IMG/VR virus record: IMGVR_UViG_3300042991_001437 | Span: 1 to 36,061 of that record | Source: a virus | Strand: one strand, 5' to 3' | Length of the DNA stretch: 36,061 nucleotides | In this document: piece by piece, positions 13,586 to 27,317 of the stretch | Position numbering within the stretch: the first letter of the stretch is position 1 | Layout: every line of letters starts with the position of its first letter | Program-made: the position numbers and the translations under genes | The notes under the pieces: model-generated | Told to the model about the DNA's origin: nothing | The model's input: only the letters and a program-made list of their open reading frames with translations | Database searches by the model: none

Positions 13586-14092
13586 TTATCGCTTTTTAAA
13601 AATAGTGTTCATATAATTTTCAACCTCTGTTAAATTAAGCCCGACCACCCTTTCAACGCTGGCAGTCACCTGAGGATGACTGCCGATGAATTGCCTGGCC
13701 GGTATCTTGATCATGCTCCCCACCGGCTTAAGCGCCATTCCCTTCCACATGTTCGATTCTGCTGTGGGCTTTTTCCCTCCCCGGCTTGCTTTGTAGTACA
13801 TGGCCCAGAAGAAACGCTTCATCTTACCGGTTACCCTGATCTGCCCGCCGCTGTTCTGAATCTCAGCAAAGATGGCCGACGAAGTGAACCGCAGCTCATT
13901 GCCAACAAGACTACTGCGCAGGCTACGCCTCAGGTACCCGCTCCGGATCATGAGGCTCCCCCTGCGGTTATGTATCTTGACCGATGGCCACGGCTGATCA
14001 AAGAATGCCTTCCGCTCAAAATTGCGGTCGAACTCCTCGGAAAGCTCAACCTGCAAGTCTTGCATGATCCTTTTATAAATCAGATCACTCAT
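13586..14092 (-). CDS. Virion morphogenesis protein (gpG/gpS-like tail completion)
   Basis: The protein has 168 residues. It contains a helical start, then LMIRSGYLRRSLRSSLVG, a strand pair IFAEIQNSGGQI, and IPARQFIGSHPQV near the C-terminus. The ARQFIG loop and the early RSG(Y)LRRS segment are hallmarks of the phage virion morphogenesis family (Mu gpG, P2 gpS), which completes the tail and joins it to the head. It overlaps the MuF-like gene by 8 bases and is followed 3 nt later by the gp37-like gene. Confidence 0.85.
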   Translation of the reverse strand: MSDLIYKRIMQDLQVELSEEFDRNFERKAFFDQPWPSVKIHNRRGSLMIRSGYLRRSLRSSLVGNELRFTSSAIFAEIQNSGGQIRVTGKMKRFFWAMYYKASRGGKKPTAESNMWKGMALKPVGSMIKIPARQFIGSHPQVTASVERVVGLNLTEVENYMNTIFKKR

Positions 14093-14939
14093 TCTCCAGG
14101 TCTCCCTTAAATTTATAGTAAGGATGGTTCGGCGGAAAGATCACCTGGTCGCGGCCAGGGTTAAAGCGGAACATGGCCAGCCGGTTGCGGCCATCTTTAT
14201 CGATCTGGGTGGTTGCTTCATCCCCGTAGGTCATGGCCTGATTCTTATCCGTTGGGCCGTACTTGCTTTTCAGTACCCGGGGAGCCTTGCACCGGCAACG
14301 CCATCCATTAGGCGGGTAGTACTCAGCCCAGAAAGGATCGGTGGCCGGTAGAGTGATCCCGTTCATGACCAGATGGGATTCCCTCACCCGGTCGTCATTG
14401 GCTGTGCGGTACTGCATGAGATATCGCTCCGGATCACCCTCGCTGTCCTGGTGCCAACTCGCCGCCATCGTGGCCGACTGTGTGGCGAAATTATGCTCTG
14501 CCTCCAGGTAACTGACATTATAGAGCTGGTGCAGCTTGTTCATTTCAGTCTTGAAATCATTCCAGGAGCGGATTTTCCCATCCTGGTCAACCAGCAGGCT
14601 GGTGGCCTCTCTAAGCTCGGCGATCGACTTGCAACCGGAGAACACAAACACATCATTCCGGAGCTTTGCCAGCATTGCTTCAGGCACTTTTGTTTCGATG
14701 GTTGCCAGGCTGGTCGATAAGCTGGCCCGGATCGACGTAATCAGGCCTCTGACGGCCTCGTCCTCCAGGAGTTGATATGTGTAGCCTCCGGCCTCAAATA
14801 GCCTCTTAATGGCCGCGAAAAAGGCCGCGTCGTCAATAGGCGGTGGAGCGGCCAGGGTGATAAGCCCGCAATCGGGGCATTGAAGATCATAAATAGCTGC
14901 GAGTCCAGCGTGCAGCCCCGACCATGCGGGGCTACTCAG
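14085..14939 (-). CDS. MuF-like minor head protein, predicted -1 frameshift extension of the portal
   Basis: Open in one frame from 14939 to the stop at 14085 (284 codons). Its C-terminal half has YRTANDDRVRESH, then DPFWAEYYPPNGWRCRCK, the signature of Mu gpF / SPP1 gp7 head morphogenesis proteins. The middle AMLAKLRNDVFVFSGCK segment also fits. There is no ATG, GTG or TTG until a GTG at 14687, which would delete 84 residues, so normal initiation is unlikely. The frame is entered from the portal by a -1 step at the heptamer at 14939-14945. The first part after the step is LSSPAWSGLHAGL, then a CPDC pair. A non-standard start, or a one-base error in the A6 run, would be the alternatives. Confidence 0.75.
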   Translation of the reverse strand: MSSPAWSGLHAGLAAIYDLQCPDCGLITLAAPPPIDDAAFFAAIKRLFEAGGYTYQLLEDEAVRGLITSIRASLSTSLATIETKVPEAMLAKLRNDVFVFSGCKSIAELREATSLLVDQDGKIRSWNDFKTEMNKLHQLYNVSYLEAEHNFATQSATMAASWHQDSEGDPERYLMQYRTANDDRVRESHLVMNGITLPATDPFWAEYYPPNGWRCRCKAPRVLKSKYGPTDKNQAMTYGDEATTQIDKDGRNRLAMFRFNPGRDQVIFPPNHPYYKFKGDLENE

Positions 14940-14945
14940 AAAAAA
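14914..14945 (-). promoter_or_regulatory. Predicted -1 ribosomal frameshift signal (slippery site plus stem-loop)
   Basis: Read leftward, the portal gene ends UCU UUU UUC UGA. The heptamer U UUU UUC (14945-14939) has the X XXY YYZ form in the portal frame. After it come UGAGU (5 nt), then AGCCCCG (14933-14927), a 6-nt loop and CGGGGCU (14920-14914), a perfect 7-bp stem. Heptamer, spacing and stem are the standard elements of a -1 programmed frameshift signal. A shifted ribosome would read on into the MuF-like frame, making a product of about 678 residues; an unshifted one makes the 395-residue portal. Confidence 0.75.
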
Positions 14946-16123
14946 GAGTTAAGCTGCGGGCCGGGGGTTTTCTTAGGCCCTAAAACCTGGACACCGAACT
15001 TGGTCTTGATCCACTCCGGATCAACATCGAAATATTGCATCGCGTCTTTCGTATAGACCCAGAGTTGTGCAAGGTCCTCGCTGGGTTCGAACTCCCAGGT
15101 GAGCCCCTCAGGGAGAATTCCCAACTTCACCAGGGCAGGCATGACCATCGAGGCAAAATAGCCCTCCAGTGTTACTTTATCGGCCTGGATCAACCGGTCA
15201 AGCTGCTTACGGCTTTCCTGCTCCTTGGAACGGTTTCCGTTCACCGTATCCTGACCCAGTACTGCTCCGGATATGAGCATCGACATTTCGCTATTGCAAA
15301 GCTGGATCAGGTTTCTATAAACGTCTCCGTTGGTGTCGACACCTTTGGCGAATTCCAACTCCTCGGTATCATCGATAATGAACCAGGCCGCGGAGCCCAT
15401 GTCGCGCATCATCTGCTCTGCCCTGGTGAGCATGACCGGATCCTGCGTGTTGGTCTTGATGTACCTGGGAGGTATGCCGTATATTTCGCATAACTCACTC
15501 CAGCAACTCTGGGCAAACCTTTTGAAAAGGACATGTGGCACGGCCTTATTAAGCAGGCCGAGGTTTTCCCAATCTCCAAACTCCAACACCCACCAGCCAT
15601 ATTCCCGCTGCTCACGATAGCGGATCCCGTCCTGGTTCATCTCGTCGTATAGCAGGATCCCGTCACGCGGCTCGACATTGCGCCGGTTGATCGTCCGGAT
15701 CTTGAGCCCGGCCAACCCATCATTGTAAAACTCGACCAGGGTGTGGCCACGGTAGATCGTGTCGGCCATAGCCTCCAGGAGTGTGGGCATCCAGACGGCT
15801 TTTCTAAGGGCTGCGGTCAGCTCCTCATTGATCTCCCCGTTGGCATCTTTCACCACGTAGGTACCGCCGACTACCTGGCGCTTACGATTTTCAAGCTGCG
15901 AGATAAGTAGCGCGTCCAGCGTGATGTCATCATAGAGCTGCTGGATCCTGCTCCGCCTCGGGTTGTCAACAGCGGTGGCTGACTGAATGGATCCCTTCCA
16001 GGTAGCGATATCTTTGCGCGCCTGGCTTACCGTGCGCAGAATGATCTTGTCGTTCCAGGTGTCCTTTCTTTTGGGTGCATCAGGCAAGCCCTGGGCAGAT
16101 GTTTTTTTTGTGGTTTTAGCCAT
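14936..16123 (-). CDS. DUF935 portal protein (Mu gp29-like)
   Basis: This protein has 395 residues, at the short end for DUF935 portals. Typical elements can be read: a N-terminal ISRARKD-like region (here SQARKDIATWKG), SQLENRKRQVVGG, the WMPTLLEAMADTIYRGHTL core, WWVLEFGDWENLGLL, and a C-terminal SGAVLGQDTVNGNRSKEQESR, where the Thr/Asn-rich loop is conserved in the family. It forms the dodecameric channel at the head-tail vertex. Translation ends at a UGA directly after a slippery heptamer (14939-14945), and the -1 frame continues into the MuF-like protein. It lies 24 nt downstream of the DUF1320 gene. Confidence 0.92.
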   Translation of the reverse strand: MAKTTKKTSAQGLPDAPKRKDTWNDKIILRTVSQARKDIATWKGSIQSATAVDNPRRSRIQQLYDDITLDALLISQLENRKRQVVGGTYVVKDANGEINEELTAALRKAVWMPTLLEAMADTIYRGHTLVEFYNDGLAGLKIRTINRRNVEPRDGILLYDEMNQDGIRYREQREYGWWVLEFGDWENLGLLNKAVPHVLFKRFAQSCWSELCEIYGIPPRYIKTNTQDPVMLTRAEQMMRDMGSAAWFIIDDTEELEFAKGVDTNGDVYRNLIQLCNSEMSMLISGAVLGQDTVNGNRSKEQESRKQLDRLIQADKVTLEGYFASMVMPALVKLGILPEGLTWEFEPSEDLAQLWVYTKDAMQYFDVDPEWIKTKFGVQVLGPKKTPGPQLNSFF

Positions 16124-16147: not shown

Positions 16148-16621
16148 TTACTCATGCGTGAATTTCTCCCTACTTCCAGAGCGGAAGGGTAGCGACTTGT
16201 CAGTTTCAGGATCAGGATCGGGAAGAACCGGCAGGTCGGCATTGAGCGGAACCTTGCCGTCATACTTGCCGGTGGCCGATACTTTTTCGAGCCAGTCGAT
16301 GGCCCGGTCGTAGCGTTTGATAATATCCTCCTGGATAATATCCACATTGGCCAACCTGGTGACCCAGTAAACAGTGACTGACTTTGTAAGTTCGAGCACC
16401 AACGGGTCACGGTCATCTCCGGTCGCCGAAAATATAGCATCTACATCGTAGCGTTTGCGGCCATCTTTAAACTCTGCCTGGCTACCGGGTGCCAGATAAC
16501 TCTTAACCTCCTTAATGGCCGCTTTTATGGCCATCACCGGGATATCGGTATCACTCTCAGTGATCTGGTCGAGCTGATAGGTGTACAGCGCGCTCTTAAG
16601 CTCTTCAACTTCTACAAACAT
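16148..16621 (-). CDS. DUF1320 protein (Mu gp36-like)
   Basis: The protein has 157 residues. It begins FVEVEELKSALYTYQLDQITE, has a basic YLAPGSQAEFKDGRKRYDV in the middle and a helix VTVYWVTRLANVDIIQED then IKRYDRAIDWLEKVSATG, which match the helical core of the DUF1320 family (gp36 of Mu), a head-tail connector or adaptor. It is between the small basic gene and the portal, as in many Mu-like phages of this phylum. An overlapping reading frame on the same strand (16126-16440) was rejected as a shadow. Confidence 0.75.
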   Translation of the reverse strand: MFVEVEELKSALYTYQLDQITESDTDIPVMAIKAAIKEVKSYLAPGSQAEFKDGRKRYDVDAIFSATGDDRDPLVLELTKSVTVYWVTRLANVDIIQEDIIKRYDRAIDWLEKVSATGKYDGKVPLNADLPVLPDPDPETDKSLPFRSGSREKFTHE

Positions 16622-24075: not shown

Positions 24076-24489
24076 ATGTTCGATAGCAGACAATATGAAT
24101 GGAACGACATTAGCCTAAACTTTGGTGGTGGAGATGTTGTCGAGATTCTCGAGTTTTCATATACCGAGAAGCAGGAAAAAGAGCTTTCTTATGCTAAGGG
24201 GAATCAACCCCACAGCATCCAGAAAGGGAACTTTTCCTATGAGGGAAAACTCAAGGTGACGCAGGCCGGGTACGAAGCATTAGTTGAAAAAGGGAACGGC
24301 AGCGTTCTCAAATTAGAGGCTGATGTCATTTGTGCTTATGGTAATCCGTCAAACGGCGATGTCATTGTTACCGACAGGGCCGTTAATGTTCAATTTACCG
24401 AGGCCGGTAAAGGGATGAAACAGGGTGATAAGAAAATGGAGGTAGAACTTCCGTTTATTTTCCTGAGGCTTCAGAATCACGTAGCTTAA
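24076..24489 (+). CDS. Tail tube protein
   Basis: The protein has 137 residues. It is beta-rich with a WNDISLNFGGGDVVEILEFSY opening and GNFSYEGKLKVTQAGYEALV in the middle, a pattern of tail-tube proteins, and it follows the sheath gene by 10 nt. A tube protein of about this size is expected here. It lies upstream of the chaperone pair. Assignment rests on order and beta-barrel-like composition. Confidence 0.7.
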   Translation: MFDSRQYEWNDISLNFGGGDVVEILEFSYTEKQEKELSYAKGNQPHSIQKGNFSYEGKLKVTQAGYEALVEKGNGSVLKLEADVICAYGNPSNGDVIVTDRAVNVQFTEAGKGMKQGDKKMEVELPFIFLRLQNHVA

Positions 24490-24507
24490 TTCTAATCTTT
24501 ATATTTT

Positions 24508-24831
24508 ATGAGCAAAGTGAAAATCATGACCGCCGCTGAAGTGACCCCGGACATTAAGGCCGGATGGTCAAAGCAGTACGGTGAAGGTAAGTGCGGCATC
24601 CTCAGGGTTGAGGGTAAAGTAGCCTATCTGCGACCGCCAACCCGCACGGAGATGGGAGCCTATTCAGTCGCCTATCGGAACAATCCGGTTAAAGCCAATG
24701 AAATGCTTTTAAAGCAGATCATGCTGGCCGGTGATCCGGAGATCATCGAGGATGATAAGCTGTTCTACGCGGCTGCAAATAAGCTCCCCGAAATGGTTCA
24801 GGCTGGCGAGGCCGAGTTGGAAAATTTTTAA
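24508..24831 (+). CDS. Tail assembly chaperone, short product (gpG-type)
   Basis: The unshifted product has 107 residues. It precedes the tape measure gene and ends in Glu-Asn-Phe-UAA, where the last codons (GAA AAT TTT TAA) form a slippery site at 24822-24828. Acidic and helical at the C-terminus, it fits the short product of the G/GT chaperone pair, which coats the tape measure during tail assembly. The ratio of short to shifted product is usually critical in other phages. Confidence 0.75.
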   Translation: MSKVKIMTAAEVTPDIKAGWSKQYGEGKCGILRVEGKVAYLRPPTRTEMGAYSVAYRNNPVKANEMLLKQIMLAGDPEIIEDDKLFYAAANKLPEMVQAGEAELENF

Positions 24832-25049: not shown

Positions 25050-27317
25050 ATGGCAAGCGCACTAACCTACATACTTTCCCTGGACGACCGAATGAGCGGA
25101 AAGCTCAAATCGATTGGCGTTAACAGTGATTTCGCCCTCAATAAATTTGCTGGCCTGCAAAAGCAGTCTGTCCAGGTTGGAGCCAACCTGAACGCGATGG
25201 GCCGGTCGGTGTCGACCCTGAGCGATAAACTCAATCTGATGCGCGCAGAGCGTGATCTTATCCCCGCCAAAAATATCCGGGATATCCGCACGTACAATAG
25301 TGAGATTCAGAAACTCGAGCGTGAAATATCCAGGCTGCAAACAACCAACAACGGCTCCAAGCTAAAGTCACTGACCAAAGATGCTATAGCATCCCTGCCA
25401 GGCGGAAATTTTATCACAAACCCGGTTGTGGCCGCAACGGCTGCTATCGGCTTTATGACAAAACAGGCCCTGGACTTTGACGAGGGCATGGCCAAAATCA
25501 ATACCACCGCCCAGCTTTCCGGTGATAAGCTGGCCAGCCTGAGGAGTGACATCCTAGCCGTGGGGAAGAGCCTGAAGATCGACCCAGCACAGCTCACCCC
25601 GACCTTTGAGAAGATCCTCTCGAACGTGGGTGACGTTGACGTTTCGATGAAGATTTTTGAAAGCACTTTGAAAGGTTCTAAAGCGGGCTTTACAGATGCT
25701 TCAATTGTGGCCGATGCACTGGCGCAGTCCGTGTCGGCTATTGGTGCTAAAAATGCCGACGCCCAGCAGGTCCTTGATGTACTTTTTGCCGCAAAGCGAG
25801 TCGGTGCCGGTGAGTTCCGGGATTATGCACAATATGTTCCTGGCCTGATTGCCGACGCCCGTAACCTGGGCATAGCCTTCCAGGATACTGCAGGTATTTT
25901 CGCTTATATGACTTCAAAGGGAAACACGGCTGAGCGGAGCGCGATGCTCATGCAAAATGCATTCACCGCCCTGGGCAAAAGCGATATCCAGAAAGGCCTG
26001 GCCGGTGCCGGTGTGAACGTGTTCGACAAAGCTGGAAATATCCGGGCCATCGATGAGATCATGAGCGATCTGTCGGTGAAGATGAAAGCCCTGGGATCAG
26101 ACGAGGCCAGGAGTAACTTCCTGGAGAAGATCGGCCTGAAGGATGCCCAGGCAAAAAGCACTTTCAGCGTGATGACATCCGAAGTTGATAAGCTTAAGCT
26201 TGCACTTGACGCGACCCGAAACGCCACCGGTGAGACGGATGCCGCGATGAAGTTTGCTAAAAACCCGGCAATGGAGCTTAAGGAGGTGTGGAACGGATTC
26301 AAAACTACGCTCACGGAAGCCGGTACCGGATTCATCGCTATTCTTGAACCTGTTCTAAAGCTCGGTTCATTTCTCTTTGATGTTTTAAGCCCTGTCCTTT
26401 CCGCAGTTGGAAAGGGCTTAAAATGGTTTGTTGATATTCTAGAGAGTGGAAACCCGCTGGTGTGGGGAGCGGTGGTTGCGGTTGGGACTTATGCAGTTGT
26501 CACGAATGGCCTTGCTATCGCTACCGGAGCCTTTTCGCTCGCCACTAAAATAGCTGCAGCGGGACAGTGGCTATTAAATGCCGCGATGTCGGCTAACCCG
26601 ATCGGTCTGGTTGTGGCAGGCATAGCATTACTGGTTGGTGGCATTATGTGGGCCTGGGAACACTTTGAAGGCTTCCGAAAGGTCATCCTGGGCCTGTGGG
26701 ACTCTTTCAAGCAGGTTTTTACAAATATTGGTGATTTCTTCAGGAAGATATTCGAGCCTATTGGGGAGGCGATCAGCGCTTTCAAAGAAGGCCGCTGGGC
26801 TGATGCCGCGAAGGCAGTCGGTAAGATGGCCTTCAACCTTTCTCCGGTGGGCATGGTCACCCAGGCGGTCAGCTTTGCCGCTGATGGCGGATTCACTAAA
26901 GGAGTAAGTGACGCGTTCAAGACTGGGGCAGCAAAAGCTACAAAGGGCGACGAAAAAGCGACCGGGGAGGATAAGCAGCCGGTAAATTCCTTCTCCCCCG
27001 AAATCAATGTCAATCCCGGATTTAATGTCATTGCTCCTCAGGAGTCTCCCTGGGCTAACCTCACTCCGGAGGGAGGAACTAAAGAGGTCGTTAATAAAAC
27101 AACCACTAAAGAAACGACTAAAGAAACCAAGAAGACTGCCGAGGCCATAGCCACCGGTGGCCAGAAGACGCAGAACTTCTCCATCACAATTAAAGAGTTG
27201 ATCGGGATTAAGAGCCTGCAGAATTATTCAGACGCAACCGCTGAGGATATCCGCGAAGCCGTTCTGGACGAATTAATGAGAGCTTTGAATATGACTCAAT
27301 CGGTGGCCAATGGATAG
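25050..27317 (+). CDS. Tape measure protein
   Basis: The protein has 755 residues, setting tail length. It has a TP901-type core (VGKSLKIDPAQLTPTFEKIL, DALAQSVSAIGAKNADAQQV, AGEFRDYAQYVPG), helical N-terminal part, hydrophobic stretches at about residues 460-550 (WGAVVAVGTYAVVTNGLAIA; NPIGLVVAGIALLVGGIMW), then a Lys/Thr-rich tail. Those hydrophobic stretches are typical of tape measures and may act in membrane channel formation at injection. It follows the chaperone pair and overlaps the next gene by 8 nt. Confidence 0.93.
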   Translation: MASALTYILSLDDRMSGKLKSIGVNSDFALNKFAGLQKQSVQVGANLNAMGRSVSTLSDKLNLMRAERDLIPAKNIRDIRTYNSEIQKLEREISRLQTTNNGSKLKSLTKDAIASLPGGNFITNPVVAATAAIGFMTKQALDFDEGMAKINTTAQLSGDKLASLRSDILAVGKSLKIDPAQLTPTFEKILSNVGDVDVSMKIFESTLKGSKAGFTDASIVADALAQSVSAIGAKNADAQQVLDVLFAAKRVGAGEFRDYAQYVPGLIADARNLGIAFQDTAGIFAYMTSKGNTAERSAMLMQNAFTALGKSDIQKGLAGAGVNVFDKAGNIRAIDEIMSDLSVKMKALGSDEARSNFLEKIGLKDAQAKSTFSVMTSEVDKLKLALDATRNATGETDAAMKFAKNPAMELKEVWNGFKTTLTEAGTGFIAILEPVLKLGSFLFDVLSPVLSAVGKGLKWFVDILESGNPLVWGAVVAVGTYAVVTNGLAIATGAFSLATKIAAAGQWLLNAAMSANPIGLVVAGIALLVGGIMWAWEHFEGFRKVILGLWDSFKQVFTNIGDFFRKIFEPIGEAISAFKEGRWADAAKAVGKMAFNLSPVGMVTQAVSFAADGGFTKGVSDAFKTGAAKATKGDEKATGEDKQPVNSFSPEINVNPGFNVIAPQESPWANLTPEGGTKEVVNKTTTKETTKETKKTAEAIATGGQKTQNFSITIKELIGIKSLQNYSDATAEDIREAVLDELMRALNMTQSVANG

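Follow-up and report, generated by a model that had tools for sequence, protein, structure and literature searches.

A probable programmed −1 frameshift site at the 3′ end of a Mu-type portal gene, conserved among Mu-like viruses of Bacteroidota

The Mu-type portal gene of IMG/VR virus record IMGVR_UViG_3300042991_001437, whose 36,061 nucleotides (nt) are here called the window, very probably ends in a programmed −1 ribosomal frameshift site, from which both the portal protein and a fusion of portal with the MuF protein would be made. Judged by sequence comparison, the site is deeply conserved and puts a known mechanism to new use: the slippery heptamer, the downstream stem, the relation between the two frames and the lack of MuF start codons all recur among relatives. 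The features of the site are listed below.

14936..16123, minus strand: Mu-type portal gene (DUF935/Portal_Mu), 395 amino acids, 0 frame
14939..14945, minus strand: slippery heptamer U_UUU_UUC in the phase X_XXY_YYZ, 14945-14939 in reading direction
14936..14938, minus strand: 0-frame stop codon UGA, abutting the 3′ end of the heptamer
14914..14933, minus strand: predicted stimulatory stem-loop AGCCCCG/CGGGGCU with loop CAUGGU, from folding and covariation
14085..14945, minus strand: MuF (SPP1 gp7-like) frame, reached via −1 slippage, 286 codons including the two Phe codons
14085..16123, minus strand: predicted portal-MuF trans-frame product of about 679 amino acids, which would read ...LNSFF-LSSPAWSGLH... 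across the junction

The identity of the two proteins is clear from profile searches. The portal matches Pfam Portal_Mu (PF06074) over positions 1-336 of 336, with an E-value of 9.8e-69 and 232.7 bits against a curated cut-off of 23.9; it also matches PHROG 113 (portal), and its profile matches the solved portal chains 9khx (7.8e-11) and 8rka (2e-8). MuF matches Phage_Mu_F (PF04233; 4.4e-13, 50.4 bits against a cut-off of 29.6) and TIGR01641 (43.1 bits against 39.65). PHROG 35074, listed with function unknown, matches both window proteins and, on the strength of these matches, is a portal-MuF fusion family.

On the minus strand the portal gene ends AAC TCT TTT TTC TGA. The 5-nt spacer TGAGT (14938-14934) leads from the heptamer to a stem of seven base pairs, with arms AGCCCCG (14933-14927) and CGGGGCT (14920-14914) around the 6-nt loop CATGGT. 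Folding gives nine pairs when flanking bases are included, with a minimum free energy of −23.7 kcal/mol (z = −3.3), and none of 200 shuffled sequences was equally stable. Read from TTT TTT (14945), the −1 frame meets no stop codon before 14085, 284 codons beyond the two Phe codons, and its first ATG, GTG or TTG is a GTG at 14687, codon 87; an ATG within the stem loop lies in the +1 frame and is irrelevant. The earlier note, made from this sequence alone, had described the heptamer, UGA, spacer, stem, loop and open frame exactly to the base, together with the 395-residue portal; its fusion length of 678 residues is corrected here to 679.

Relatives were gathered with peptides from the portal core (e.g. 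FAQSCWS, RAEQMMR), which lie far from the junction, so the site itself was not selected for by the search. Among 178 loci and the window, MuF lies in the −1 frame at 156 loci, and seven loci initially scored as lacking MuF (distinct sequences L047, L051, L118 and L133) all carry the heptamer with the −1 frame continuing. Clustering of the portals at 90% identity gave 134 clusters. A canonical in-frame heptamer lies within 12 codons of the portal end in 122 of these (89 T_TTT_TTC, 6 T_TTT_TTT, 19 A_AAT_TTT and 8 C_CCT_TTC), against 1 of 295 control 3′ ends of upstream open reading frames (ORFs) in related loci (Fisher p ~7e-92, a value that ignores shared descent). Comparison thus strongly supports the frameshift proposed in the earlier note. 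The 0-frame stop of relatives falls 0-24 nt, rarely 60 nt, past the heptamer while the stem spacing is unchanged. Two further portals, L193 and L122, share this site, their 0-frame stops being 24 or 60 nt distant from it. The same arrangement occurs in isolated phages and in isolate genomes of Rikenella, Dysgonomonas, Leeuwenhoekiella, Bizionia, Elizabethkingia and Myroides.

The way in which the heptamer varies indicates that conservation acts on nucleotides and not on amino acids. The terminal Phe-Phe pair is spelled T_TTT_TTY in 95 of 96 clusters, compared with 28 of the 274 such pairs at other places in these loci, and the base ahead of it is always T, though the preceding codon specifies 11 different amino acids. 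Where Phe-Phe has been lost, Asn-Phe (A_AAT_TTT) or Pro-Phe (C_CCT_TTC) stands in its place and X_XXY_YYZ is preserved. On an approximate portal tree (FastTree), the T, A and C types interchange repeatedly.

The stem is conserved alongside the heptamer. At 93% of the 122 sites a stem scoring at least 16 has its 5′ arm 3-7 nt past the heptamer, whereas the same score was reached in 7.6% of dinucleotide shuffles and in 8.3% of control regions 150 nt downstream. Since a MAFFT alignment of 42 sites mixed two stem registers, compensatory pairs were counted on two clean groups. Among A_AAT_TTT sites with distal stops (alignment A4), 92% of cells are paired, with nine double-change cells (0 of 500 shuffles), and the stems alternate between AGCTCCG/CGGAGCT, AGCCCCG/CGGGGCT, AGACCCG/CGGGTCT and AGCCTCG/CGAGGCT. 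The mainly flavobacterial group (alignment A5) has 100% of cells paired and 14 double-change cells (0 of 500 shuffles). Compensatory changes were among the things that the earlier note had proposed to look for in relatives. In the A_AAT_TTT group the 0-frame stop falls inside the loop, and the distance of the stem is fixed to the heptamer, not to the stop.

The MuF frame appears to depend on the site for its expression. An ATG between the heptamer and about +60 is present in only 14 of the 122 heptamer clusters, and the median first ATG lies 198 nt downstream, behind a conserved N-terminal segment, FFRLSP...LHxxLxxLYxCxCxxC; the lack of an ordinary start noted in the window thus extends to the relatives, as the earlier note's reading required. 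MuF frames of at least 285 codons are open in 113 of 113 complete cases. In an AlphaFold model of the window MuF (mean predicted local distance difference test score, pLDDT, of 87.9), helices 7-19, 39-52, 57-61 and 63-83 all precede the first possible start; no solved MuF relative was found by sequence search or by fold search (all E > 1). MuF, which lacks its own start codon, has no evident route of expression other than frameshifting. The MuF proteins of Peternella_1, TCUEAP3 and BS-TP1 are annotated in GenBank from starts inside the conserved N-terminal region, and the frameshift feature was therefore missed there. GenBank MuF genes begin at internal starts in L016 (MT732475), L021 (PQ571274) and L022 (OK632026), and these annotations probably omit the true N-termini. 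L153 has the site with the MuF frame broken further downstream, and L146 has a stop within the portal; either could be a decayed prophage or an assembly error.

Four other explanations were weighed against these data. RNA polymerase slippage on the T run, yielding an edited mRNA whose extra base would encode the fusion, is very unlikely. Most sites do contain runs of T6-T8, and the A9 run of a small distant group (L217, L218 and L220) makes such slippage plausible there, but A_AAU_UUU and C_CCU_UUC hold runs of just three or four identical bases and fit tandem tRNA slippage exactly, the heptamer never departs from the X_XXY_YYZ phase, and downstream stems that covary and keep a fixed spacing stimulate ribosomes rather than polymerase. 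Slightly less probable still is that MuF is an ordinary separate gene with a non-standard start, such as the CTG of CTGA that overlaps the stop in the window, or an internal one such as GTG 14687. Peternella_1, TCUEAP3 and BS-TP1 use internal starts as annotated, and the clade members L019 and L020 have a normal ATG. However, the CTG is not conserved (relatives have TTA, GTA, CTA or TTA AAT), an internal start would remove four helices of a confident model together with the LHxxLxxLY motif, and the conservation of heptamer and stem would go unexplained.

We assign only a negligible probability to the two remaining explanations. A sequencing error in the T6 run, concealing either a simple fusion or a pair of ordinary genes, might be suspected of a homopolymer in a metagenome contig; for the family it is refuted by recurrence in independent assemblies, the 156 loci, many of them from isolates, sharing one frame relation across three heptamer types. 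If the slippery run were there by chance and the stem served to terminate transcription or to decorate the stop codon, a G+C-rich stem after a stop would be accounted for. Yet no terminator-like site was found and no U tract lies behind the stem, the MuF coding frame passes through it, and it tracks the heptamer both when the stop is 18-24 nt away and in a fused family that has no stop at all.

Relatives that encode portal and MuF as one protein, whose existence the earlier note had considered possible, offer a further view of the site. Direct fusions join at the same residues, as in F. covae (LDFFRLSP) and Pedobacter arcticus (LSFFPQAPW), and a larger single-ORF family that includes P. gingivalis prophages encodes proteins of ~830-900 residues in which portal, MuF and PBECR2 domains are combined. 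In 24 of 31 fused clusters (23 by automatic screen and L251 by eye) the heptamer is retained as an in-phase T_TTT_TTY together with the stem; single-ORF proteins of this kind are found among L230-L260 and in L017, L023, L097/L167 and L124. The stem follows nearly always exactly 6 nt after the heptamer and alternates between GCCCCG/CGGGGC and GCCCCC/GGGGGC, partly at synonymous sites. The 25,603 codons of fused ORFs contain 27 T_TTT_TTY heptamers in frame, 23 of which sit at the portal-MuF junction. With the fusion as the default product, −1 slippage would yield a short portal product, in the manner of dnaX, and the retained site suggests that both short and fused products are selected for. A −1 stop occurs 18-32 codons on in 23 of 23 clusters counted, against a chance baseline of 86% of positions, so that this early stop is not significant alone as a sign of selection; it is the retained heptamer and stem that provide the evidence for the inverted arrangement. 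An AlphaFold model of the natural fusion L230 (residues 1-630) is of low confidence, with a predicted template modelling score (pTM) of 0.44; near the junction it does no more than hint at a disordered linker.

We propose that most ribosomes terminate at UGA and release the 395-residue portal, while some, held by the stem-loop 5 nt downstream, would slip back by one base with two Phe tRNAs on UUU UUC and go on in the MuF frame to the end of the fusion. Fused and plain subunits could then co-assemble in the 12-subunit ring, anchoring MuF at the portal vertex in a copy number set by the rate of slippage. There MuF might bind DNA ends and act in ejection, as SPP1 gp7 does, or deliver attached effector domains. 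The occurrence and rate of slippage, the mixing of subunits in the ring and the function of MuF are our inferences. A low MuF copy number on the portal is suggested by analogy with SPP1 gp7, 1-3 copies of which are bound to the portal (PMC5576092, PMC4493119); the earlier proposal of one or a few copies appears too narrow for lineages in which the fusion is the default product.

Several observations weigh against this interpretation. Shared descent inflates simple heptamer counts, yet 80 clusters are left when portals are grouped at 70% identity. The stem is weak or absent at 4 of the 122 sites. A few clade members lack the T, A or C heptamer and stem, namely the plain fusions L027, L207, L249 and L259 and at least three with a separate MuF (L019, L020 and L095). 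The existence of direct fusions shows that fusion of every subunit can be tolerated, and a low copy number is thus not always needed, unless these proteins slip or are cleaved. We nevertheless lean towards a broader proposal, in which this Mu-like lineage of Bacteroidota sets the number of MuF and toxin-like domains by frameshifting in the portal gene; the default product would have flipped between lineages, with the heptamer and stem kept by selection and the mixed ring itself conserved.

The toxin-like domains stand at the C-termini of some MuF proteins. By length, the frames reached through the frameshift divide into a class of 285-310 codons, to which the window belongs and which holds only MuF, and one of 355-542 codons. 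Beside MuF, Pfam matches in the 75 long frames (alignment A7) comprise CdiA_C (9), LPD3 (8), ADP-ribosyltransferase exoenzyme (ADPrib_exo_Tox, 4), PBECR2 (4), ART (3) and glutamine deamidase (Gln_amidase, 2), and these toxin-like domains fall in a frame reached only through the frameshift. Many of the toxin-like domains that accompany MuF in Bacteroidota prophages would then exist only as extensions of the portal, which would make their annotated N-termini wrong and leave their dose to be set by slippage. MuF polymorphic toxins (PMC5576092, PMC11699363) and portal-MuF-PBECR fusions (PMC5512222) were already known; in the available portions of these papers we found no mention of frameshifting, and those of PMC5512222 treat the latter as plain fusions and do not mention a retained site.

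The proposed mechanism has parallels. As in the tail-assembly chaperone G/GT of lambda and most long-tailed phages, a late structural gene carries X_XXY_YYZ near its end and gives a minority C-terminal extension in a two-product balance, but the gene in question encodes the portal, MuF forms the extension, the setting is the packaging module and the downstream hairpin is nearly universal. Lactobacillus phage A2, gene 10 of T3 and T7, and Listeria phages A118 and PSA (−1/+1) likewise place a structural protein and its frameshift-extended form in the same particle, as predicted here. Those extensions are short or Ig-like decorations, whereas here a whole protein of 285-540 residues would be added, from another family and encoded by a separate gene in other phages. 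The fused portal-MuF clade alone may resemble dnaX (tau/gamma), where a long default product is shortened when −1 slippage beside a hairpin leads to an early stop; unlike dnaX it involves a phage structural gene, and one family holds two opposite arrangements of one site. MuF/SPP1 gp7 minor head proteins and MuF toxins (PMC5576092, PMC11699363) share the position of the MuF domain after the portal gene and the optional C-terminal toxin-like domain; MuF here differs in having no start codon and in its predicted covalent joining to the portal by frameshifting. The domain order portal, MuF, PBECR2 of the single-ORF relatives agrees with that of the portal-MuF-PBECR fusions (PMC5512222; PHROG 35074).

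No earlier description of a frameshift site in a portal gene seems to exist. We found no account of one in open-access full texts, a scope that leaves aside bioRxiv and most subscription papers, and by text count the word 'portal' is absent from a 2016 recoding review. The class of mechanism is old; its place in the portal gene appears to be new, although priority is not proved. Conserved programmed frameshifting is on record for only a few phage structural genes, to which the portal would be added. The arrangement suggests a way for a 12-subunit ring to take up MuF in limited number and is thereby relevant to the old problem of how SPP1 gp7 and Mu F reach 1-3 copies per head; its opposite forms, extension and truncation, provide a natural set for asking why both products are needed.

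The carriers appear to form a large group among the transposable Mu-like viruses of Bacteroidota. A Mu-type portal was present in 44 of 395 genomes of an unselected Bacteroidota sample, and the frameshift site is found in one clade of 141 portals (support 99; approximate FastTree tree). Portals outside this clade, many with a separate ATG-started MuF, have none of the T, A or C heptamers, and in E. coli phage D108 gene 30 is an ordinary separate gene. Other slippery sequences were seen in individual loci. L202 has G_GGA_AAG, the heptamer type of lambda G/GT, at its portal-MuF junction. The distant DUF935 portals of L206, L217, L218 and L220 carry A_AAA_AAG, and their MuF lies in the −1 frame, where no start occurs for more than 300 nt; in the last three the heptamer lies within a run of nine A, where ribosomal or transcriptional slippage is possible.

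Within the window, identity of the site with the tail-assembly chaperone G/GT is ruled out, as the gene is the portal and the tape measure (PhageMin_Tail, 25050-27317) lies on the opposite strand; the single place inspected there, the gene end at 24489 (24420-24560), two genes ahead of the tape measure, has no obvious slippery site. The window has no close DNA relative among annotated phages, and no Rfam family matches within it. Two neighbouring genes flank the portal and MuF.

13586..14092, minus strand: downstream head/tail-completion gene, with a weak Phage_tail_S match (3.4e-4), its start overlapping the end of MuF
16148..16621, minus strand: upstream adaptor-like gene (Phage_Mu_Gp36, 1e-5)

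The same contig also carries an AAA transposition-helper-like gene and a DUF2586 gene, which we take to be of the kind found with contractile tails.
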